A DNA stretch of 64,000 nt from Chitinophagales bacterium (lineage in GTDB: Bacteria; Bacteroidota; Bacteroidia; Chitinophagales; JADIYW01): assembly GCA_019694955.1 (NCBI GenBank), contig JAIBAX010000020.1, forward strand, positions 1 to 64,000, read 5' to 3'. Below are positions 1-57,758 of this stretch, in pieces. The translations under genes were made by a program, and so were the position numbers. Under the pieces are notes generated by a model, which did not search any database, was not told the DNA's origin, and saw only the letters and a list, made by a program, of their open reading frames with translations. Each line of letters starts with the position of its first letter. The first letter of the stretch is position 1.

Positions 1-2133
1 CCTCCCGAAGGTGAAGCCCTGTTATCATGGTTAAGCCATCAAGATATGTTACCACCCGTAGCGCTCCTAGCTTATGTTCCGGATCAACCGCAGCATGCCG
101 TTTTCTATCCTTTTGCAGATTTTTCCCCCGAGTGGAATGCCATAAAAACTGCACAGCAATTAAACATTCCTATACGCCTGATGGACATGCCTTTAGCACA
201 TAAATTTGCTTTAAATGATAAAGTTGATAAAGAAGATTTTGCCATACAAAGTGATGCAGAGATATCTGCTACAGAAGATATGCCAGCGGTTATTTCACCG
301 CATGACCCAATATCATATCTCGCTGAGATTGATGGATTTGTTGATGGCGAGGAATGGTGGGAACATCAATTTGAGATAACACCACAACCATTAACTGTAT
401 TTGAGGCGATCGCTCATGCTATGAGTGCGTTGCGGGAGGCGTTTCCTGACAATAAACCGGAAGAAAAAATTAGGGAGGCATTTATGAGAAAAGCCATCCG
501 TACTGCACAAAAAGAAATGTATACAGAAATTGCGGTGGTTTGTGGCGCTTGGCATATTCCCGTATTACAGGAAATGCCCAAACAAAAAGACGATGAGGCA
601 CTACTTAAAAATCTTCCGAAAACAAAAGTAGAATGTACGTGGATACCTTGGACATTTGACCGACTGTCTATTGAAAGCGGTTATGGTGCAGGCATTACAT
701 CTCCAGGATGGTATAACCATATATGGAAATACCCCAATGATGATGGTACTCGATGGCTTTCTCATACTGCAAATGTCTTTCGCAATAACAAAATCGACAT
801 TTCTTCGGCACACATTATTGAAGCCGTAAGGCTAACGAATGCTTTGTCAGCATTGCGTGGAATGGTGCGACCTGGACTAAAGGAACTTAACGAAGCTACC
901 CAAACCGTTATGTGTATGGGCGAAAGCATCCTTTTAGAATTGATAAGAAAAGAATTAATTGTCGGCAAGTCTATTGGGAACATCCCGACCGGCACACCTC
1001 AAATTCCTTTACAACGAGATTTTGAAAAACAAATAAAAAGCCTTCGCCTGAAAATAGACGGTGAACATAAAATTATTTCGCTTGATTTACGTGAACAGCA
1101 TGATCTCCAAAAGAGTATCTTATTACATAGGTTGAATTTATTAGAAATACATTGGGGTAAAACCCAACACACTTATGGCAAAGGCACTTTCAAGGAAGAA
1201 TGGAGTTTGCGCTGGACGCCTGAAATGATTATTCAGCTTTTAGAAAAGGCTCCTTGGGGGAATGATATTGAAACGGCAGCCAATAATTACCTCATACATC
1301 TTTCCGACCAATACCATCAACTGTCAGAAATTACCAAGATTGCTCAAAGTGCCATACCAGCAGAACTTCACGTCGGAATTGTTGCCATAATGAATAAAAT
1401 GGATGAACTGGCAGCTAATACAACCGATACAGGTGATTTAATGGAAACCTTCATTCCTTTGGTCAGCATTAAGCGTTATGGCAATGTCAGAAATACCGAT
1501 ATCCATACCATCAGTGTCATTCTATCATCCATTTTTTATAGAATTATTGCCAACTTTCCGTTGAGTTGCAGCAATATCAATGAAGAAGAAGCATTGGTAT
1601 TATCCAAACGAGTTAAGAAGGTTCATGACGCGGTGGTATTATTAGATGACGGAGAATTATCGGAGGTCTGGAAGGAGACTTTATTCAAAATTGTTGACAT
1701 GGATATGATAGAGGCCGTTATACATGGCACATGTTGTAAATTGTTGTACGATATCCATGCAATAGATGATACGGCTACCGCACAGATGTTCAGCCTAGCA
1801 TTATCTGCCGGCAATGACCCCAATTATGCTGCGAACTGGTTGGAAGGATTTCTGGAAGCTGCCGCTACGATACTCATTTTAGACGATCACATTTGGAACA
1901 TCGTTAATAATTGGGTAGCAGATTTGTCGCCGGAGGTTTTTGTCAATATCCTACCCTTACTACGTCGCACATTTGCTACCTTTAGCAGCATTGAAAGGCA
2001 AAAAATCGGTTTGCGTGCCAAGCGTGGAAATACAGCATCATCAGGGGCTTTTACTGCTATTCAAGAACAATTACATTTGGAAAGGGCATTTAAAGTAATT
2101 CCCGTAATGGCTGATTTATTCGGAATAAAATAA
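1..2133 (+). CDS. DUF5682 family protein, 5' end outside window
   Basis: The reading frame is open from base 1 (it begins P-P-E-G-E-A-L-L-S-W), so the first ATG at 46 is internal and the start lies outside the window. At least 710 residues are visible. I recognise the DUF5682 family, chiefly by the motif V-V-C-G-A-W-H-I-P-V-L near 538-570; its conserved His recalls the ChaN/EreA/TraB-like fold, but that relation is from memory and no activity is known to me. There is no signal peptide in the visible part and no membrane segment; the C-terminal half is helix-rich. The next gene, a vWA protein, starts 4 bases after the stop, so the two are surely co-transcribed. In other bacteria DUF5682 genes sit with a MoxR AAA ATPase, a SWIM zinc-finger protein, DUF5691 and a vWA protein; those partners would lie to the left. 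Confidence 0.8.
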   Translation, partial: PPEGEALLSWLSHQDMLPPVALLAYVPDQPQHAVFYPFADFSPEWNAIKTAQQLNIPIRLMDMPLAHKFALNDKVDKEDFAIQSDAEISATEDMPAVISPHDPISYLAEIDGFVDGEEWWEHQFEITPQPLTVFEAIAHAMSALREAFPDNKPEEKIREAFMRKAIRTAQKEMYTEIAVVCGAWHIPVLQEMPKQKDDEALLKNLPKTKVECTWIPWTFDRLSIESGYGAGITSPGWYNHIWKYPNDDGTRWLSHTANVFRNNKIDISSAHIIEAVRLTNALSALRGMVRPGLKELNEATQTVMCMGESILLELIRKELIVGKSIGNIPTGTPQIPLQRDFEKQIKSLRLKIDGEHKIISLDLREQHDLQKSILLHRLNLLEIHWGKTQHTYGKGTFKEEWSLRWTPEMIIQLLEKAPWGNDIETAANNYLIHLSDQYHQLSEITKIAQSAIPAELHVGIVAIMNKMDELAANTTDTGDLMETFIPLVSIKRYGNVRNTDIHTISVILSSIFYRIIANFPLSCSNINEEEALVLSKRVKKVHDAVVLLDDGELSEVWKETLFKIVDMDMIEAVIHGTCCKLLYDIHAIDDTATAQMFSLALSAGNDPNYAANWLEGFLEAAATILILDDHIWNIVNNWVADLSPEVFVNILPLLRRTFATFSSIERQKIGLRAKRGNTASSGAFTAIQEQLHLERAFKVIPVMADLFGIK

Positions 2134-2137
2134 AGAT

Positions 2138-3277
2138 ATGGAAGAAGAACAAATAAAACGGTGGCGACTTATTTTAGGTAGTGATACCAACGATGAACTC
2201 ACCTGCACCCTCTCTAATATTGAAATTGGTATTGACAAAACACTGGAAGCGCTCTATAATACGAGTAGAAAAGGTGGGTTGGGTGCCTCTTCACCAAATG
2301 TATCCCGATGGCTTGGAGATATTAGAACCTATTTTCCCACCTCGGTAGTAAAGGTCATGCAACAGGATGCCTTAAAGCGATTGAATCTGACAGCCATGCT
2401 CACGGAGCCCGAATTATTGGAAACTGTCGTTCCAGATGTACATTTAGTGGCCAATTTGATGACATTAAGCAGAACCATTCCTGAAAAAACAAAGGATACT
2501 GCCCGTATGGTCGTTAGAAGAGTAGTAGACGAACTAATGCAAAAGTTATATACACCAACACAACAAGCTATTGTCGGTAGCCTGAACCGTTCTGCAAAAA
2601 ACCGAAGACCTCGACACAATGAAATCAATTGGCATGAAACCATTAGAAAAAATCTAAAACATTATCAAGAAGAATACAAAACGATTATTCCGGAAGTAAG
2701 GATTGGTTTTGGAAGAAAACGCAAGGCCATGAAAGATGTTGTACTATGCTTAGACCAAAGTGGATCTATGGGTACATCTGTGATATACTCCGGAATTTTT
2801 GGTGCCGTAATGGCATCGATTCCTGCTATCCAAACGAGGATGGTGGTTTTCGATACGGCAGTAGTTGATTTATCAGAAGAATTGGCTGACCCGGTTGAAT
2901 TATTGTTTGGTGTACAATTAGGCGGCGGCACAGATATTGCTAAAGCCTTGCAATATTGCCAACAAATCATCACGAAGCCATTAGATACCGTGTTGGTGCT
3001 GATTACTGATTTATATGAAGGCGGAAACGAGGCAGAGATGAGGAAAAAAGCTGTAGAATTATCCGGTGCGGGTGTTCAGGTGATTTGCCTTTTAGCATTG
3101 AATGATGATGGCGCACCCTCGTATGATCATGAAAATGCTGCCTTCCTTTCCTCCTTGGGAATTCCTGTTTTTGCCTGTACACCTGATCTTTTCCCGGAAC
3201 TTATGGCCACTGCTTTAAGTAAGCAAGACATCAACAACTGGGCAGGAAATCAAAATATCAAAGTGCATCGCAGATAA
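2138..3277 (+). CDS. vWA (CoxE-like) domain protein
   Basis: The 379-residue product has an N-terminal helical half and a C-terminal von Willebrand factor A domain. The metal-ion-dependent adhesion site is intact: D-Q-S-G-S-M at about residues 205-210 (DxSxS), a G-G-G-T-D motif about 60 residues later (the MIDAS Thr), and I-T-D-L-Y-E-G-G as the third metal-site segment. There is no signal peptide, so it should be cytoplasmic. In MoxR/vWA gene sets the vWA protein is thought to present a substrate or effector to the AAA ATPase. It follows the DUF5682 gene by 4 bases and is the last gene of that operon; the next gene, lysS, has its own promoter-like box. The family assignment is firm; the biological role is inference. 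Confidence 0.85.
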   Translation: MEEEQIKRWRLILGSDTNDELTCTLSNIEIGIDKTLEALYNTSRKGGLGASSPNVSRWLGDIRTYFPTSVVKVMQQDALKRLNLTAMLTEPELLETVVPDVHLVANLMTLSRTIPEKTKDTARMVVRRVVDELMQKLYTPTQQAIVGSLNRSAKNRRPRHNEINWHETIRKNLKHYQEEYKTIIPEVRIGFGRKRKAMKDVVLCLDQSGSMGTSVIYSGIFGAVMASIPAIQTRMVVFDTAVVDLSEELADPVELLFGVQLGGGTDIAKALQYCQQIITKPLDTVLVLITDLYEGGNEAEMRKKAVELSGAGVQVICLLALNDDGAPSYDHENAAFLSSLGIPVFACTPDLFPELMATALSKQDINNWAGNQNIKVHRR

Positions 3278-25710: not shown

Positions 25711-27510
25711 ATGAGTTTGGATCCTTTTGAGGTTTATGTAGCACCCGATACCAGATATTTTAAAACAAAAGATGAATTTGACAAAGCCATCAGCAAAGAT
25801 TTTATCTTGCATGCAAATAAAACCTTGGCAAAAGGTGAGCATTTTTTCGTAGGATTATCTCATGGAAAATCTCCCTCTGGAGCATATCAGTATATCATTG
25901 AGCATTATACAAAAATCACTAAACCTGAAAATATTCGCTATACCTTTGTAAACACCCCGCTCGTTACGCAAGAAGGTCTTTCCGATGTTTTTGACGCAAG
26001 AGTTTTCTTACTGACCTTATTAAAAAAGGGGTATATTTCCAAACACCAGATACTTGGTAGGAACTTTAAGGAAGAGGAAGCAGATGACTATTGTACAGAA
26101 ATCAATCTCCTTATCAGCAGTTACCTGAAGGAACATAAAAAAACAGGCTTTGATTATGCATTTCTAGCCTCCAATCCTGATGGAAGGGTGGCAGGAATAG
26201 AAAGAAACTCTAAGGCTTTCAGTTCCAATGAAGTTGCCATATCCGTTATAGTGAAGAAGCAAAAAGAAATCACTGTCACCCCATTCTTTTTAAAGAAATC
26301 AGCAAGGATTGCCTTTCTGGCAACAAAGTCAGACAAAAGAAGACCCTTGGCATGGCTATACTCCATTTGGGGCAAAGAAGATGAAAGCCCCAGTTTCTTG
26401 CGTTTTATTGACAATGTACAACAAAAGATGACTGTCTTCATCGATGACCAAGCGTTAACATGGCCACAAATCGAAGTGGAAAGAGAAACGCCTTACGGAG
26501 TCAGTAAGATAAGAATAGATTTGGCAAATTCCTATAAGCCTAACGTAAAAGAAAAATTGCCCGTCATCCTTTTAGTGCATGGCTTTTTAGGATTAAATTC
26601 CTTTGATGCATTGCTAGCCGCTATTCCGTCAACAAAATATATTGCCGCAGCCATGCATTATGGCACCATCCCCAACGATTTACCTGTTAAGGAATACTCG
26701 CAACATGTGATGAAAAATATCGATGCAGTAGTAAGCTTCTTCGGTTCGAAAGGACATCCTGTATACCTCTTTGATCATTCGATGGGCAATATTTATTTTC
26801 TTATGATGGACAGAGAATTTGACAAACTCTCGGGAATAAACACTTATCTAAGAGGAAGAATTGGTGCCAATCCTTTCTTTGGGGAAGAATCCAAGCATGC
26901 TTTACTGGGATTTTTAGACAATGTCATCATACCTTCAGTTTCATTCTTAGAGAAAATCGCCGAAAAAACCGTCTTATTAACGTTTAGAAGTATCCTTCCT
27001 TTAGACACGAAACGTGGGGTGCGCCGTAGAGGTATCAATTTAACAGAAGTACTGATACAAAATGAATCCAAAAGGACAGACGCCATTTGGTCGGCAGCTA
27101 AGCAGCGTATAATGTTTCTGATGTCGAACATGGACTCGTTACCTGATTTAAACAGAATACCTATTGAAAATGCGCTAAACAGATTGCCTTCTAAAATTTT
27201 TGCTATTCAAATCAACTCCGCACTGCAAGAATCGAAAGCTTTTGATGAACAAACCGGATTATTGCACACCAGAATTCATAAGATTCCAGTACTCATCTTA
27301 AAAAGCGATAAAGATGGCGTTGCCAAATTTGTTCCACGGCTATATGATTCTGAGAATGCAAAAATAATGGACATCACCAACCGACAGGAAACTGATTTAT
27401 TCCGTGAACACTTATACCACATGGTCAATCCACTATCGACTACCAAAATCATCGATGCGTTTATTACAAAAAGAGAACAGGAATTAAACACAGAAAATTC
27501 ACCTGCCTAA
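25711..27510 (+). CDS. 6-phosphogluconolactonase-like domain fused to alpha/beta hydrolase
   Basis: The 599-residue cytoplasmic protein appears to join two domains. Residues about 15-245 resemble the 6-phosphogluconolactonase/NagB fold: F-F-V-G-L-S-H-G-K-S-P-S-G-A-Y (46-59) for the phosphate loop, and F-L-A-S-N-P-D-G-R-V-A-G-I (151-163) where active enzymes have a G-x-D-G-H-x-A-S motif, so the key His is replaced by Arg159. Residues about 270-590 are an alpha/beta hydrolase: L-L-V-H-G-F-L-G (H290) for the oxyanion region and F-D-H-S-M-G-N (nucleophile Ser357, with Asp in place of the first Gly of GxSxG). A late His such as R-E-H-L-Y-H-M could complete the triad. No signal peptide. The first domain is likely non-catalytic or altered. 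Function unknown. Confidence 0.7.
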   Translation: MSLDPFEVYVAPDTRYFKTKDEFDKAISKDFILHANKTLAKGEHFFVGLSHGKSPSGAYQYIIEHYTKITKPENIRYTFVNTPLVTQEGLSDVFDARVFLLTLLKKGYISKHQILGRNFKEEEADDYCTEINLLISSYLKEHKKTGFDYAFLASNPDGRVAGIERNSKAFSSNEVAISVIVKKQKEITVTPFFLKKSARIAFLATKSDKRRPLAWLYSIWGKEDESPSFLRFIDNVQQKMTVFIDDQALTWPQIEVERETPYGVSKIRIDLANSYKPNVKEKLPVILLVHGFLGLNSFDALLAAIPSTKYIAAAMHYGTIPNDLPVKEYSQHVMKNIDAVVSFFGSKGHPVYLFDHSMGNIYFLMMDREFDKLSGINTYLRGRIGANPFFGEESKHALLGFLDNVIIPSVSFLEKIAEKTVLLTFRSILPLDTKRGVRRRGINLTEVLIQNESKRTDAIWSAAKQRIMFLMSNMDSLPDLNRIPIENALNRLPSKIFAIQINSALQESKAFDEQTGLLHTRIHKIPVLILKSDKDGVAKFVPRLYDSENAKIMDITNRQETDLFREHLYHMVNPLSTTKIIDAFITKREQELNTENSPA

Positions 27511-45296: not shown

Positions 45297-47846
45297 ATGA
45301 TGAGGTCATTTTTCTGTGTTCTATTATTTTCACTTTCATTAACCCTATTCGGTCAAACGGCTGAATCCTTCTTTAACAAAGGACTTACCAAGCTCAACAA
45401 CAGTGATTTTCTAGGTGCTATTAAGGATTTTGACAAAGCCATACAAGCCAACCCAAAATATGCAGAAGCCTATACGAATCGTGGAAATGCAAAAAATGCT
45501 ATCAACGATGCCGCCGGAGCATTGGTGGATTATGATAAAGCCATCGAATTAAATCCCAAGAATCCAATAGCTTTCAACCAAAGAGGCAATATCTACAAAA
45601 ATATGGGCAAATATCAGGAAGCTATCAAAGATTTCGACCAATCTATTTCCCTCAAACCTGATTATGCAGAATCCTTTAACAACAGAGGTGTTTGCAAGCT
45701 AAACCTTAAAGACTACAACGGCGCGCTGGCAGACTTCACGAAAGCAATAGATACAAAGGCGGATTTTTCCGACGCTTATAATAATAGAGGTGTTTGCAAA
45801 ACCATTATGAAAGATTATACGGGATCAATTATTGATTACGACAAAGCCATAGAAATCAATCCAAAATATGCAGAAGCTTATAATAACCGTGGAGTTTCCA
45901 AAAAGAATAACAAAGATATCTCCGGTGCTGTCTTCGACTTCGACAAGGCCATTTCTTTGAATGCCGAATTTACAAAAGCATATTATAACCGAGGCGTCTC
46001 TAGAAGTTTGCTAGGCGACAACCTAACAGCCATTACCGATTTCGACAAAGCATTGGCACTTAACAATAATTATGCGGAGGCATATATCGGAAGAGGTAAC
46101 GCCTACCGAACTACCAATAACTACGACAATGCGTTAACTGACTATAATAAAGCAATTTCCATCAACCCAAACTTCTCTGAAGGCTTCTATGGCAGAGGAA
46201 TAGTACAGCTTCAAAAAAACCACTTAGAAGAGGCTATTATTGACTTCAACAAAGCAATTTCCTTGAACGCCGCTTACGCAGAAGCATACGAGGGAAAAGG
46301 TGAGGCAGAAAGATTAAACAAAAACTATCCAACCGCCATACAAGACTATTCCAAAGCCATCGAACTCAATAAAGATGCATCAAATGCATTTACAGGAAGA
46401 GGATTATCCTACCAGTCTTTGGGTGATTTCGAAAGTGGAAAAAAAGATTTTGAACAAGCTGTAACCTTAAATAATAAAAATGCAACAGCATATAACGGCT
46501 TGGGAGAGTGTATGGTAAGTCTGAAAGATATCCCAAATGCTATCACACAATTTTCCAATGCTGTAAACATTAATCCTTCTTATACGCAAGCTTGGTACAA
46601 TAGAGGGGCAGCAAAAAATGTACTCAAAGACTATAAAAATGCTATTCCCGATTTTGACAAAGCAACCGCCTTCAATCCATCTTTTACGGAAGCCTTTTAT
46701 CAGAGAGGGTATTCCCGACTAAACTTAAAAGATTATAATGCTGCTATGGTGGATTTTAGCAAAACGATTGAACTTAACCCAAAACATATAGATGCATATA
46801 TTGGGCGTGGAAAGGCAAAAGCTTCAACTGCCGATAATGCTGGCGCTATTGCCGATTTCTCGAAAGCCATCGCCCTGGATCCGCAAAAATCTACTGCCTA
46901 TTCCGGCAGAGGTTATGCCCATTACAACCTAAAAGAAGATGCCAAAGCACTTACAGATTTTAACAAAGCACTCGAATTAGACCCAAAATCTTCCGAAGCC
47001 TTTAACGGGAAAGGCTATGTTCAAATTCGTTCTAATGAATTAGAAAATGCTATTTCCAATTTCAATCAGGCACTTTCGACACAACCGGAATATGCAGAAG
47101 CCTATAATGGAAGGGGCACCTGTAATAGTTTAAAGACGAATTATGATGCTGCCATAATAGATTTCTCCAAAGCCATCGAACTCGACAAAGAATACAGCGA
47201 CGCCTACAATGGTAGAGGTATTTCGCATTTCAGCAAAGGCAACGACTCCTTATCTATCATAGATTTCGATGCGGCACTCAAACTTAATCCTACCAACGCA
47301 AAAGCCTTCAACAATCGTGGCATTGCTAAAAGCAATCTAGGCGATGAAAAAGAGGCACGCAAAGACTTCACCAAAGCCATTGAATTGGATCCTAATTTCG
47401 TAGAAGCATACACCAACAGAGCCTATTCACGCTATTTTATGGGCGACAGCAAAGGTGCCATCACCGATTGCAACAAAGCATTGGAAATAGATCCCCTATA
47501 CGTAAATGCCTTATTGAATAGAGGTATGGCGCATGTGTACAGTTATGATTTTGAGTTGGCATTGGTAGATTTAGACAAAGCCATCAGCCTCAACCCCAAT
47601 ATTCCGGAAGCATATACCTTTCGTGGCAATGCGAAAGAAGGTTTGAAAGATTGGCAGGGTGCCATTGCCGACCACAATCAGTGCATTGCCCTAAAACCAG
47701 ATTATGGAGAAGCCTACTACAACCGTGGATATACAAAAACTAAAGCAGACGATATGGAAGGTGCTTGTGAAGATTTTAGAAAAGCGTTGGAATTGGGATT
47801 TACACAAGCCATTCCGGAGATTAAGAAATTTTGCAAGTCGAAATAA
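45297..47846 (+). CDS. secreted protein with about 24 TPR repeats
   Basis: The 849-residue product has a signal peptide (M-M-R-S-F-F-C-V-L-L, cleavage near L-F-G-Q, residue 20). The rest is a nearly unbroken array of about 24 tetratricopeptide repeats of 34 residues, with the pattern A-I-x-D-F-D-K-A-I-x-L-N-P-x-x-A-E-A-Y-x-N-R-G. Many repeats are very alike, suggesting recent expansion. TPR superhelices bind other proteins or peptides. It could be periplasmic; there is no sorting domain or lipobox. The last repeat ends in A-C-E-D-F-R-K-A-L-E-L-G, a common cap. It stands alone on its transcript. The partner is unknown. Confidence 0.9.
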   Translation: MMRSFFCVLLFSLSLTLFGQTAESFFNKGLTKLNNSDFLGAIKDFDKAIQANPKYAEAYTNRGNAKNAINDAAGALVDYDKAIELNPKNPIAFNQRGNIYKNMGKYQEAIKDFDQSISLKPDYAESFNNRGVCKLNLKDYNGALADFTKAIDTKADFSDAYNNRGVCKTIMKDYTGSIIDYDKAIEINPKYAEAYNNRGVSKKNNKDISGAVFDFDKAISLNAEFTKAYYNRGVSRSLLGDNLTAITDFDKALALNNNYAEAYIGRGNAYRTTNNYDNALTDYNKAISINPNFSEGFYGRGIVQLQKNHLEEAIIDFNKAISLNAAYAEAYEGKGEAERLNKNYPTAIQDYSKAIELNKDASNAFTGRGLSYQSLGDFESGKKDFEQAVTLNNKNATAYNGLGECMVSLKDIPNAITQFSNAVNINPSYTQAWYNRGAAKNVLKDYKNAIPDFDKATAFNPSFTEAFYQRGYSRLNLKDYNAAMVDFSKTIELNPKHIDAYIGRGKAKASTADNAGAIADFSKAIALDPQKSTAYSGRGYAHYNLKEDAKALTDFNKALELDPKSSEAFNGKGYVQIRSNELENAISNFNQALSTQPEYAEAYNGRGTCNSLKTNYDAAIIDFSKAIELDKEYSDAYNGRGISHFSKGNDSLSIIDFDAALKLNPTNAKAFNNRGIAKSNLGDEKEARKDFTKAIELDPNFVEAYTNRAYSRYFMGDSKGAITDCNKALEIDPLYVNALLNRGMAHVYSYDFELALVDLDKAISLNPNIPEAYTFRGNAKEGLKDWQGAIADHNQCIALKPDYGEAYYNRGYTKTKADDMEGACEDFRKALELGFTQAIPEIKKFCKSK

Positions 47847-53981: not shown

Positions 53982-56900
53982 ATGATGCCATTCAGAAGTT
54001 TCATTTGTTTAATATTTCTCATTATCACTTTCATTGTAAGGGGAGGAAACACAAATATCAGCCTTCAATGGGAACAACAAAACACACTTTCCACTTCCAA
54101 AACTTTGATGTCATTCACCAATGCCGTCCAACAGCCTGTGGAAGACTTCATCCCATACTATATTAAAGACATTAAGGCTTCCTTTTTGGTAAGTGAGCCA
54201 ATTTTAACAAATGTATCGGTACAGGTGTTAAACATTACGCTTCCGGAAAGTTGGAAAGGAAAAATTGGAAGTACCTTCAAAATTAACCTCGCCAGCGGCA
54301 AAGAGAAAAACCAATACATCCATACATTTTCCATTCTTCCTATCAGATTAAATGCCTCTGGTCAGTACGAATTCCTGACTAATGGCACATTGGAATATAA
54401 GGAAGAAACCATAAACCACCGCCTCGGCAACCGTTCCTATGCCGCCAATTCGGTGTTAGCTTCTGGCAACTGGTATAAATTTGGCGTAACAAAATCAGGA
54501 CTATATAAACTTGATTACGATTTCCTGAAATCATTAGGGATGAATCCCGACAATATCAATCCTGCGCAAATTAAAATATATGGACATGATGGTGGTATGC
54601 TGCCACAACTAGCCGGATCGGCAGTAATTGACGACATTAAAGAATATGGTATTAAAGTCGTTACTTCAGGAGTCAACTTTAAAAGTGGCGACTATATTCT
54701 ATTCTATGCGCCGGGTCCTGAAGAATGGATATATAATTCTGCCAACCAAACATTTAGGCATCAAGTTCATTATTATGCTGCAACAAAAAATTTCTTTATC
54801 ACCGCAGATGGTGCAACGGGTCAGCGGATTGGCGCAGCAACATTATCTACCGATGGTGCAGTAGCCACCTTGACGACATATGATGATTTTGCTTTCAAAG
54901 AAGACGAATTGACAAATCTCGGGCGTTCGGGTATTAGGTGGTTTGGTGAAGAATTTGGTTTTGAAGACCAAAGAACATACAATTTTTCTTTTCCAGATAT
55001 TGACAATAGTGCTTCTGCCAAAATCAATTCTTCATTCGCTGCCCGATCTTCTTCATTTTCCACCTCTTTTTCCGTTGCCGGCAATGGGACAAATTTAGCT
55101 ACTTATAATATAGGCCCTGTAGGTTCCAGCACACTGGCCGATTATGGGCGTTCTTCAGGAGGCACGGCATCTCTTGCCAATCCTTCAGACAATATTTCGG
55201 TTACGGTAACATATAGCAGACCCGACTTCGACTCAAGAGGTTGGCTCGACTATATAGAAATTCAAGTAAAAAGAAAGTTGATTTATAGAAATACGCCGCT
55301 TTATTTTAGAGGTATTGCCACTAGTGGCAGTAACACTTATCAGTTCGAAGTTTCCAACATGAGCAGTTCGGTAGAAATTTGGGACATCACCGATGTATTT
55401 AACCCTAAAAAGGTCAATTATGCGTTGGCTGGCGGTACAGCCAGTTTTAAAATGACCTTAAATGGTGTGCATGAATTTGTCGCCTTAGAAAATTCGTCAC
55501 TAACACCTACCGCATTGGGGAAGGTTGAAAACCAGAATTTACATGGATTGCCTCAGGCAGATATGATCATCATCGCCAGAAAGAATACCATGGCAAAAGC
55601 ACAGGAATTGGCTAATTTCCATGCAGAAAAGCAAGGGCTTACTACCCATGTAATAGACCTAGAGCGAGTATTTAATGAATTTTCCTCCGGCACAAATGAC
55701 ATGACCGCCATAAGAGATTTTGTAAAAATGTTTTACGACAGAGCTGGTGGAAATACATCTTTAATGCCTAAATATTTGTTGCTTTTTGGTGATGGCACTT
55801 ATAATAATCGCAACTTGGGTGCGTATTATATTCCTTCCTATCAAAGTCCGTGGTCGTTGGAATTATTGAAAACCTATACTTCTGACGATTATTTTGCACT
55901 GTTGGATGATAGTGAAGGAGATAATATTGACAATACGACCACACAAAAATTGGATATTGCTGTTGGAAGAATTCCTGCTGACAATGATGAGAAAGCGAGC
56001 ATTGCTGTAGCAAAAATCAAGAAGTATATGTCTTCGGAAGGATTTGGTGATTGGAGAAATCAGTTCACCCTTGTTTCTGATGATGAAGATGGCATACTTC
56101 ATGAAGATGCTGCAGATGGCGTTGCACAAATCATAAAAACCACCGAACCAACCATCAATGTAGATAAAATATATTTGGATGCTTTTGTACAAACATCCGG
56201 TGCCGGGGGCAGTACCTATCCGGAAGTCAATGATGCAATTAACAAGAAAATGTTCACAGGGTCATTATTTATGAATTATGTAGGACATGGTGGTGTGTTT
56301 GGTTGGGCGAAAGAAAGGGTACTCACTTTCGATGATATTAATACGTGGGAGAATGAGGATAAATTACCGCTATTTATTACGGCAACCTGCGAGTTTGGCC
56401 CATATGACCAAGAGGGAGAATATACTGCCGGAGAGCGTGTTTATTTTTCGGAGAAAGGAGGTGCTATCGCCCTGCTTACTACTGTTCGCTTAGTGTACTC
56501 AGATAGGAATGAAGAAATTAACAGGAACTTTGTAACAAAGCTTTTAGAAGCCAATAATGCAGGAACCGTTGTATTGGGAGACGTTTTGACCGCCAGCAAA
56601 AATATTACTTTCACGGCTGACGGCAATAGAAAATTCACTTTATTAGGAGATCCTGCACTCATTATAGGGTTTCCACAACACAATATTGCGACTACTGCTA
56701 TTAATATGACGCCTGTAACAGAGCCTTTAGACACTATTAAAGCGCTGTCGAAGGTTAAAATAGAAGGGGCAGTACAAAATAAAAGTGGAAATTTATTGAG
56801 TGGATTCAATGGAATCGTAGAGGTAAGGATGTATGACAAAGCAAAAACGATTAACACCCTTGAGAATGATGAGGAAAGTGGCCCTTTTACATTCAGTTTA

Positions 56901-57758
56901 CAAAAAAATGTTTTGTTCAACGGTCGTGCGCAGGTCAGTAATGGGTTGTTTAGTGTAGAATTTTTAATACCTAAAGACATCGACTATACTTTTGGTGCCG
57001 GAAAATTAAGTTATTACGCCAACGATGCCGACGAAGATGCGGGAGGTTTTTTCAATGATTTCATCATAGGTGGCATTTCTGATACAATTATCAATGATAA
57101 TGAAGGGCCGATAGTAGAACTATTCATGGAGGATGAATCTTTTATTTTTGGTGGTCTTACGAGTGAAAGTCCTAATCTTTTTGCAAAACTTTTCGACGAA
57201 AATGGCATCAACACTTCCGGAAATGGTATTGGTCATGATATTACGGCAATCATTGACGAAGAAACCAGCAATACAATTGTCCTCAATGATTTCTTCAAAG
57301 GAAACTTAGGTGATTTCACCAAAGGAGAGATACTTTATCCGTTTAGCCAATTAAGTCCGGGTAGACATACTTTAACATTAAAGGCTTGGGACAATCTAAA
57401 CAATTCCGGAAAAGGATATACAGAATTCGTTGTGGCAGAGTCAGAAGAATTTGCCATTAACAACCTATTGAATTATCCAAATCCTTTTAGCACACATACG
57501 GAGTTTACTTTTGAGCACAATCGTGCAGGCAGTAATCTCGATGTTCGCATAGAAGTTTATGCTGTTAGCGGTAGGCTAGTAAAAACACTTACTTCCAATG
57601 GTGTTGCATCTGGCTATCGGTTTAACGAAATTTCCTGGGACGGCTTGGATGACTATGGTGATAAACTTGCCAGAGGTGTTTACATATATAAAGTCACTGT
57701 GAGCGATGATGAGGGCAACACAGTCAAGAAACTTGAGAAGTTGGTAATATTGCGATAA
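53982..57758 (+). CDS. porU: T9SS sortase PorU (C25 gingipain-like peptidase)
   Basis: Cell-surface sortase that removes the C-terminal signal of T9SS cargo and attaches the protein to the surface. The 1258 residues include a signal peptide (about 1-22), an N-terminal pro-like region, and a C25 peptidase domain (about 530-910) with the catalytic pair His769 in Y-V-G-H-G-G and Cys803 in T-A-T-C-E-F-G, the spacing expected for gingipains and PorU. D-D-Y-F-A-L-L-D-D and G-R-I-P-A are family segments. The C-terminus (Y-P-N-P-F-S...A-R-G-V-Y-I-Y-K-V) is itself a T9SS-type domain, as PorU keeps. It diverges from gldJ and is followed by porV; no terminator is seen between them. Confidence 0.94.
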   Translation: MMPFRSFICLIFLIITFIVRGGNTNISLQWEQQNTLSTSKTLMSFTNAVQQPVEDFIPYYIKDIKASFLVSEPILTNVSVQVLNITLPESWKGKIGSTFKINLASGKEKNQYIHTFSILPIRLNASGQYEFLTNGTLEYKEETINHRLGNRSYAANSVLASGNWYKFGVTKSGLYKLDYDFLKSLGMNPDNINPAQIKIYGHDGGMLPQLAGSAVIDDIKEYGIKVVTSGVNFKSGDYILFYAPGPEEWIYNSANQTFRHQVHYYAATKNFFITADGATGQRIGAATLSTDGAVATLTTYDDFAFKEDELTNLGRSGIRWFGEEFGFEDQRTYNFSFPDIDNSASAKINSSFAARSSSFSTSFSVAGNGTNLATYNIGPVGSSTLADYGRSSGGTASLANPSDNISVTVTYSRPDFDSRGWLDYIEIQVKRKLIYRNTPLYFRGIATSGSNTYQFEVSNMSSSVEIWDITDVFNPKKVNYALAGGTASFKMTLNGVHEFVALENSSLTPTALGKVENQNLHGLPQADMIIIARKNTMAKAQELANFHAEKQGLTTHVIDLERVFNEFSSGTNDMTAIRDFVKMFYDRAGGNTSLMPKYLLLFGDGTYNNRNLGAYYIPSYQSPWSLELLKTYTSDDYFALLDDSEGDNIDNTTTQKLDIAVGRIPADNDEKASIAVAKIKKYMSSEGFGDWRNQFTLVSDDEDGILHEDAADGVAQIIKTTEPTINVDKIYLDAFVQTSGAGGSTYPEVNDAINKKMFTGSLFMNYVGHGGVFGWAKERVLTFDDINTWENEDKLPLFITATCEFGPYDQEGEYTAGERVYFSEKGGAIALLTTVRLVYSDRNEEINRNFVTKLLEANNAGTVVLGDVLTASKNITFTADGNRKFTLLGDPALIIGFPQHNIATTAINMTPVTEPLDTIKALSKVKIEGAVQNKSGNLLSGFNGIVEVRMYDKAKTINTLENDEESGPFTFSLQKNVLFNGRAQVSNGLFSVEFLIPKDIDYTFGAGKLSYYANDADEDAGGFFNDFIIGGISDTIINDNEGPIVELFMEDESFIFGGLTSESPNLFAKLFDENGINTSGNGIGHDITAIIDEETSNTIVLNDFFKGNLGDFTKGEILYPFSQLSPGRHTLTLKAWDNLNNSGKGYTEFVVAESEEFAINNLLNYPNPFSTHTEFTFEHNRAGSNLDVRIEVYAVSGRLVKTLTSNGVASGYRFNEISWDGLDDYGDKLARGVYIYKVTVSDDEGNTVKKLEKLVILR

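Follow-up and report, generated by a model that had tools for sequence, protein, structure and literature searches.

6-Phosphogluconolactonase (6PGL) and NagB have a D-G-H stretch in common. The histidine of the GxDGH motif of 6PGL is catalytic, and the DER motif and the arginine of the RITLT motif are catalytic or phosphate-binding positions, this arginine contacting the phosphate in the 6PGL/NagB superfamily. In alpha/beta-hydrolases a GxSxG motif is common but not essential, and in plant phytyl ester synthases a hydrolase and an acyltransferase are carried in one chain. A 6PGL fused to a metabolic enzyme is known from Giardia, as the G6PD-6PGL protein (PMC6165198), and no 6PGL-hydrolase fusion or 6PGL pseudoenzyme like the one reported here was found among the titles and abstract beginnings of the literature matches listed.

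The window analysed here, a stretch of 64,000 nucleotides from a Chitinophagales bacterium, encodes a protein whose two halves are both known folds, the first that of 6PGL and the second that of an alpha/beta-hydrolase; the Giardia protein is a different fusion (PMC6165198). The protein resembled 6PGL (PF01182, TIGR01198; 4tm8, 1vl1, 3e7f) in the fold of residues 8-252, in the order of the motifs, in the Gly and Ser of the loop and in the lysine of GxxK. Unlike 6PGL, it retained one of six active-site positions, with no row of its family keeping more than two, scored well under the TIGR01198 cut-off, was joined to a hydrolase and came from a genome where G6PD was not found. It had the common fold of NagB (2bkv, 1dea; Z about 22), but D-G-H occurred in only one of 50 family rows (locus L077) and was absent from the window protein. 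The C-terminal half shared core fold, strand order, triad placement and a helical cap with the capped alpha/beta-hydrolases (4x00 aryl esterase, 4uhd esterase, 8ynw PHB depolymerase and 4zwn monoglyceride lipase), and differed from them in its low identity (11-14%), in a D-H-S-[MI]-[GAS]-N elbow in place of GxSxG, in the N-terminal 6PGL-fold domain and in that Pfam hydrolase families stayed below cut-off. With the phytyl ester synthases there is an analogy only, since in some relatives the hydrolase/acyltransferase pairing recurs as neighbour genes, the two being separate genes here. The best explanation, to which we give about an even chance, is a soluble intracellular serine hydrolase of lipid metabolism with a non-catalytic 6PGL-fold domain that holds an anionic ligand.

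Domain organization and distribution of the fusion

25711-27510, + strand: fusion gene, 599 aa, ATG start, homologues found

A Pfam search of the window protein matched PF01182 (Glucosamine_iso superfamily) at residues 19-218 (E 2.8e-9, 37.6 bits vs a gathering score of 27), and the same family was matched by all 25 scanned relatives at E <= 0.1, whereas the 6PGL equivalog TIGR01198 was not reached by the window protein (28.3 bits vs a cut-off of 124.45). For its C-terminal half, Pfam hydrolase families were all below cut-off, and NCBIfam gave zero matches for the window protein and weak, scattered ones in relatives. PDB sequence searches returned no informative match, the weak ones including one by chance, and scans of genome and viral contigs with a single-protein query, of plasmids and of PHROGs were uninformative. 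Naming based on PF01182 could mislabel the fusion, in which almost the entire catalytic set is missing, as a 6-phosphogluconolactonase or NagB, which would mislead pathway reconstruction in Bacteroidota.

The initial annotation had read the protein as a 6PGL-like domain joined to an alpha/beta-hydrolase and had named structure prediction as what could overturn this. The full-length AlphaFold model, built from the 50-row alignment, had a pLDDT of 88.6 and a pTM of 0.87, and the C-terminal half modelled alone had a pLDDT of 88.2. In VIA-align comparisons, residues 8-252 of the model matched the 6PGL 4tm8 with Z 24.7 (rmsd 3.1, 233 aligned), residues 12-251 matched NagB 2bkv_B with Z 22.2, and residues 247-588 matched the alpha/beta-hydrolase 8ooh_B with Z 21.1 (268 aligned). 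The N-terminal part is thus predicted to have the NagB/6PGL fold and both folds of the two-domain reading were recovered. In agreement with this, hhalign of the family profile against six canonical 6PGLs (alignment A4) gave a probability of 98.0 and E 2.3e-13 over 238 columns.

Homologues of the fusion were found in 6 of 13 genomes of the same taxonomic family (the genome itself included; G004 and G009 partial) and in 43 of 298 genomes of the order. Of these 43, 38 carried the fusion and five (G172, G214, G241, G244 and G286) had weak matches in the N-terminal half, with a query range within 15-260. Both halves were covered in 33 of the 38 fusion genomes, the others being four copies at contig ends (G004, G009, G088 and G159) and one with stops (G171). 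A class draw gave matches in 21 of 395 genomes, 18 of them strong (own genome included), and a phylum draw in 12 of 395, where the own genome was the sole strong one. On GTDB contigs we found 63 fusion loci, Bacteroidota by record title except L077 (Verrucomicrobia), which pairs in the tree with a Chitinophagales MAG with a support of 100/100. The order and class scans revealed no free-standing C-terminal half; away from contig ends, matches confined to that half were short and weak (267-312 in G061:C20, E 5e-4; 263-322 in G505, E 4e-4). Homologues in the family, the order, the class and the GTDB loci rule out a chance open reading frame or a single-genome oddity: the fusion is a real family, and the fused state is kept across many Bacteroidota.

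The Verrucomicrobia-titled record of L077 is perhaps a mislabelled bin. Copies with frameshifts or stops were seen in L089, L093, G171:C219 and G478:C129, through either decay or assembly error.

The former 6PGL active site

25744-26460, + strand: N-domain (residues 12-250) of 6PGL/NagB fold that lacks the catalytic set (PF01182, hhalign, fold, residue losses)
25861-25875, + strand: HGKSP, residues 51-55, counterpart of the 6PGL loop GGSTP (Gly52 and Ser54 in 50/50)
26173-26190, + strand: NPDGRV, residues 155-160, aligned with GxDGHT (Gly158 is the one invariant residue, Arg159 varies, and Asp157 occurs in 3/50, window included)
26326-26343, + strand: KSDKRR, residues 206-211, counterpart of 6PGL GxxK (Lys206, Lys209 and Arg210 in 50/50)

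Residues were counted in a 50-row family alignment (A3), which omits 14 of the 63 loci as near copies, cut at contig ends, broken or lacking an ATG start (L042, L048, L056, L064, L066, L067, L070, L074, L079, L088, L089, L092, L093 and L096); alignment A2 omits 6 of 31 rows. In the profile alignment, LSHGKSPSG (residues 49-57) replaces the 6PGL GGSTP in the window protein, and at the family level GGSTP is exchanged for HGxSP, WGDER for FVN[ST]x and RITLT for EITVT. The final Gly of GxGxDGH alone is kept family-wide, and the GxxK lysine corresponds to Lys209. The earlier statement that the phosphate-loop motif is kept holds in part only, the motif itself being HGxSP and not GGSTP.

Six positions of 6PGL were followed through the family: all three of DER, the Asp and His of GxDGH, and the RITLT arginine. 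None was kept in 38 of the 50 rows, one in 11 and two in L077, whose D and H of GxDGH make it the sole D-G-H row; the window protein keeps Asp157. At the DER positions, D and E were found in no row and R in six, and the RITLT position held Arg in one row and Glu in 42. As the initial annotation had stated, an arginine stands at the position of the catalytic histidine, N-P-D-G-R159 aligning with GxGxDGH. The loss of the histidine was right but the losses had been under-counted, the whole DER triplet and the RITLT arginine also being missing in the window protein. Position 159 varies (R in 29 rows, Q in 10, H in 3, and M, S, K and L in 2 each), so that Arg159, which the initial annotation had over-read, is no family feature; that it is a newly acquired, conserved residue for catalysis or binding is ruled out. 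The three histidines at this position (L075, L077 and L095) stand in G-H-V-A-G, with the preceding Asp in L077 only.

A different set of residues was invariant in or close to the motifs of the former active site (Gly52, Ser54, Asn81, Gln87, Thr188, Lys206, Lys209 and Arg210, all 50/50), and the N-terminal half was conserved to the same degree as parts of the hydrolase, with a mean commonest-residue frequency of 0.68 as compared with 0.67 in the lid, 0.66 in the second core part and 0.76 in the first. Taken together, the lost catalytic set, the invariant residues and the conservation of the half indicate, as read from the alignment, that the 6PGL chemistry is gone from the N-domain and that the domain is under constraint, with other residues fixed at the old active-site motifs. 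Since the RITLT arginine is replaced by Glu in 42 rows, phosphate binding by the N-domain may be gone as well.

The genomic distribution of G6PD (PF02781) bears on the same question. G6PD was not found in the own genome, and in the order it was present in 5 of 38 fusion genomes vs 83 of 260 other genomes. Each of the five (G101, G116, G131, G162 and G171) had an additional strong PF01182 match of ordinary 6PGL length; G068 had such a match without G6PD. PF01182 was matched by the fusion gene only in the own genome, which comprises 4.1 Mb on 103 contigs and is rated 100% complete, a result limited in sensitivity because the whole-genome scan missed four known full-length fusions (G045, G061, G078 and G182). 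Because G6PD was not found in the own genome and the G6PD-bearing fusion genomes have a separate PF01182 match of ordinary 6PGL length, the fusion is unlikely to be the lactonase of the oxidative pentose phosphate pathway, a candidate that we discarded on the G6PD and PF01182 distribution.

The different residue set could also belong to a phosphosugar enzyme with a rebuilt active site, making the protein a bifunctional fusion, and the Giardia G6PD-6PGL is a precedent for 6PGL joined to a metabolic enzyme (PMC6165198). With at most two of the six 6PGL positions kept in any row, and the search for G6PD negative for the own genome and for 33 of the 38 fusion genomes, we regard this as very unlikely, and a non-catalytic N-domain is preferred.

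A further long type of PF01182 match, with open frames of about 640-700 aa, was seen in numerous f18 and f20 family genomes (G268, G226, G170 and others); we take these to be, possibly, long NagB-like proteins of Bacteroidota.

The capped alpha/beta-hydrolase domain

26461-26880, + strand: first core part of the C-domain, residues 251-390 (models, fold comparison)
26578-26586, + strand: HGF, residues 290-292, putative oxyanion-hole motif after strand 285-289 (50/50)
26773-26787, + strand: DHSMG, residues 355-359, nucleophile elbow with Ser357 (sequence, model, alignment)
26881-27276, + strand: helical cap (lid), residues 391-522, inserted after strand 380-388 (DSSP of models)
27313-27315, + strand: Asp535, which follows strand 527-531, putative acid of the triad (50/50)
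27409-27411, + strand: His567, which follows strand 550-554, putative base of the triad (50/50)

In the model, Ser357 lies at the end of strand 351-357, and the order Ser357-Asp535-His567 is the usual one for a working triad, as which these residues are putatively assigned. All three were invariant, as were Asp355, His356, Asn360, His290 and Gly291. The reading of Ser357 in D-H-S-M-G, with Asp for the first Gly of GxSxG, was correct (FDHSMGN), and the elbow proved conserved family-wide, with Asp355, His356 and Ser357 in all 50 rows; the last Gly position held Gly in 34, Ala in 15 and Ser in one. Given this invariant elbow together with invariant Asp535 and His567, the D-H-S sequence gives no reason to suspect an impaired hydrolase, and residues 251-599, a capped alpha/beta-hydrolase by fold, are probably an active serine hydrolase.

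The best matches of the C-half model were tied (4x00_A, Z 21.8 over 258 residues with rmsd 3.2; 8ooh_B and 21dl_A, both 21.7; 4psu, 21.6), and its structural neighbours were generic, comprising esterases, dehalogenases and epoxide hydrolases, with no pointer to lipids.

In a rival explanation the N-domain is a pure scaffold, which would serve docking, dimerisation or lid support, bind no small ligand and leave the hydrolase constitutive. The range of the model ended at 482-490, within the hydrolase lid, in 12 of the 27 6PGL/NagB matches listed, fitting a lid that packs on the N-domain; the two-domain model was confident overall (pTM 0.87), and most 6PGL active-site residues are gone. However, eight invariant residues, among them Gly52, Ser54 and the Lys206-Lys209-Arg210 group, are more than a scaffold would be expected to need, and we consider this explanation somewhat unlikely. 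Under the preferred explanation, the N-domain would have lost the ability to catalyse the 6PGL reaction and most likely still binds an anionic (phosphorylated) ligand in the old substrate pocket, and the bound ligand would gate the lid or place the substrate. The earlier proposal of a regulated or substrate-tethered esterase is supported in part, in that an N-domain devoid of the catalytic set yet with conserved residues on the putative pocket side, and a hydrolase with an intact putative triad, fit it.

Acyltransferase genes and the proposed function

We compared 730 open reading frames around the 63 loci and in the window. The two commonest neighbour clusters were PF01553-type acyltransferases, present at 11 and 9 loci, the next cluster being present at 7. 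The A5 acyltransferase (about 270 aa) lay head to head with the fusion, 90-165 bp upstream, in 11 loci, and marked 10 of the 12 rows of one tree clade, the exceptions being L061 (cut upstream) and L084 (another gene there). The confinement of this divergent pair to one clade indicates one origin that was kept. The A6 acyltransferase (about 226 aa, NHTSLxE, PlsC-like) was directly downstream in five loci and within three genes in four more (L045, L048, L049 and L093), of which L045 and L049 belong to a different tree clade and L048 and L093 are absent from the tree. Acyltransferase genes occupied 16 of 116 slots adjoining the fusion vs 4 of 547 farther slots (the slots beside L089 and L093, both broken loci, take in pieces of the fusion gene). 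The Fisher p of 8e-10 for this difference is overstated, since the same neighbours had served to make the profiles and related loci are non-independent. A WS/DGAT gene adjoined the fusion in L044 and L089, with TIGR02946 above cut-off for L044, and L071 had a serine-palmitoyltransferase-like neighbour gene whose best model was below cut-off.

Genome-wide, A6 was present in 21 of 38 fusion genomes vs 3 of 39 controls and 1 of 70 further controls (4 of 109 in total). The f8 controls of the 39-genome set were a biased draw from PF01182-matching genomes; the 70 added controls, without a PF01182 match, included three from f8, with A6 in one. Comparing fusion with non-fusion genomes, A6 was found in 17 of 20 vs 2 of 10 in f8 and in 4 of 6 vs 2 of 7 in f1, and genus g11 ran in the reverse direction (0 of 2 vs 1 of 1). 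Stratified by genus, the association had a Mantel-Haenszel odds ratio of 7.1 (p 0.003), a value that ignores kinship within genera and is post hoc, as are all A6 p-values, because three neighbour queries were tried (A5, PF03007 and A6). The presence of A5 (31 of 38 fusion genomes vs 14 of 39 controls; 13 of 13 in f1 with or without the fusion) was not accepted as proving a function in lipid metabolism, since it tracks taxonomic family and not the fusion, and neither was the presence of WS/DGAT (10 of 38 vs 4 of 39).

At the window locus, the fusion is flanked by a T9SS LRR protein and a PF01663 phosphodiesterase, with no acyltransferase neighbour. The own genome had no A6 and no WS/DGAT match, and two distant A5 relatives lay on a different contig. 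The acyltransferase linkage of the fusion thus holds at the level of the family.

These gaps in the own genome, the dependence of A5 on taxonomic family and the generic fold neighbours of the C-terminal half would suit a non-lipid substrate (a small ester, lactone or peptide), the acyltransferase linkage then reflecting lineage only. Against it stand the enrichment of acyltransferase genes in the adjacent slots and the association of A6 with the fusion within genera, and we hold such a substrate to be somewhat less likely than not. Acyltransferase adjacency and A6 co-occurrence together point to lipid metabolism for the fusion family. In the lipid-metabolism explanation that we favour, the capped hydrolase, with its putative Ser357-Asp535-His567 triad under the helical lid at residues 391-522, would be located in the cytoplasm (no signal peptide was seen in the fusion protein by eye), most likely has as its substrate an acyl ester or thioester from lipid metabolism, and would work with or against acyltransferases of the PlsC or WS/DGAT type.

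A bolder form of the same explanation, which we think unlikely, is that the lid opens or closes when the dead 6PGL pocket binds a phosphorylated metabolite, and that the protein is a metabolite sensor tying the state of central carbon metabolism to the turnover of acyl lipids in several families of Bacteroidota. Should the N-domain indeed be a phosphosugar sensor, the fusion would offer a compact, testable example of how a metabolic enzyme can come to regulate a hydrolase.

Other genes were also seen in the window. A BD-FAE-type esterase (PF20434; 30002-31819, - strand) is a second gene of alpha/beta-hydrolase type near the fusion. On the + strand, 46-3277 holds a DUF5682 gene followed directly by a CoxE-type VWA gene, and 45297-47846 encodes an 849 aa TPR-rich protein with 17 TPR_1 stretches. 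The gene at 53982-57758 (+ strand) encodes a C25 peptidase that carries a FlgD-like Ig domain and resembles the T9SS sortase PorU in size and domains.
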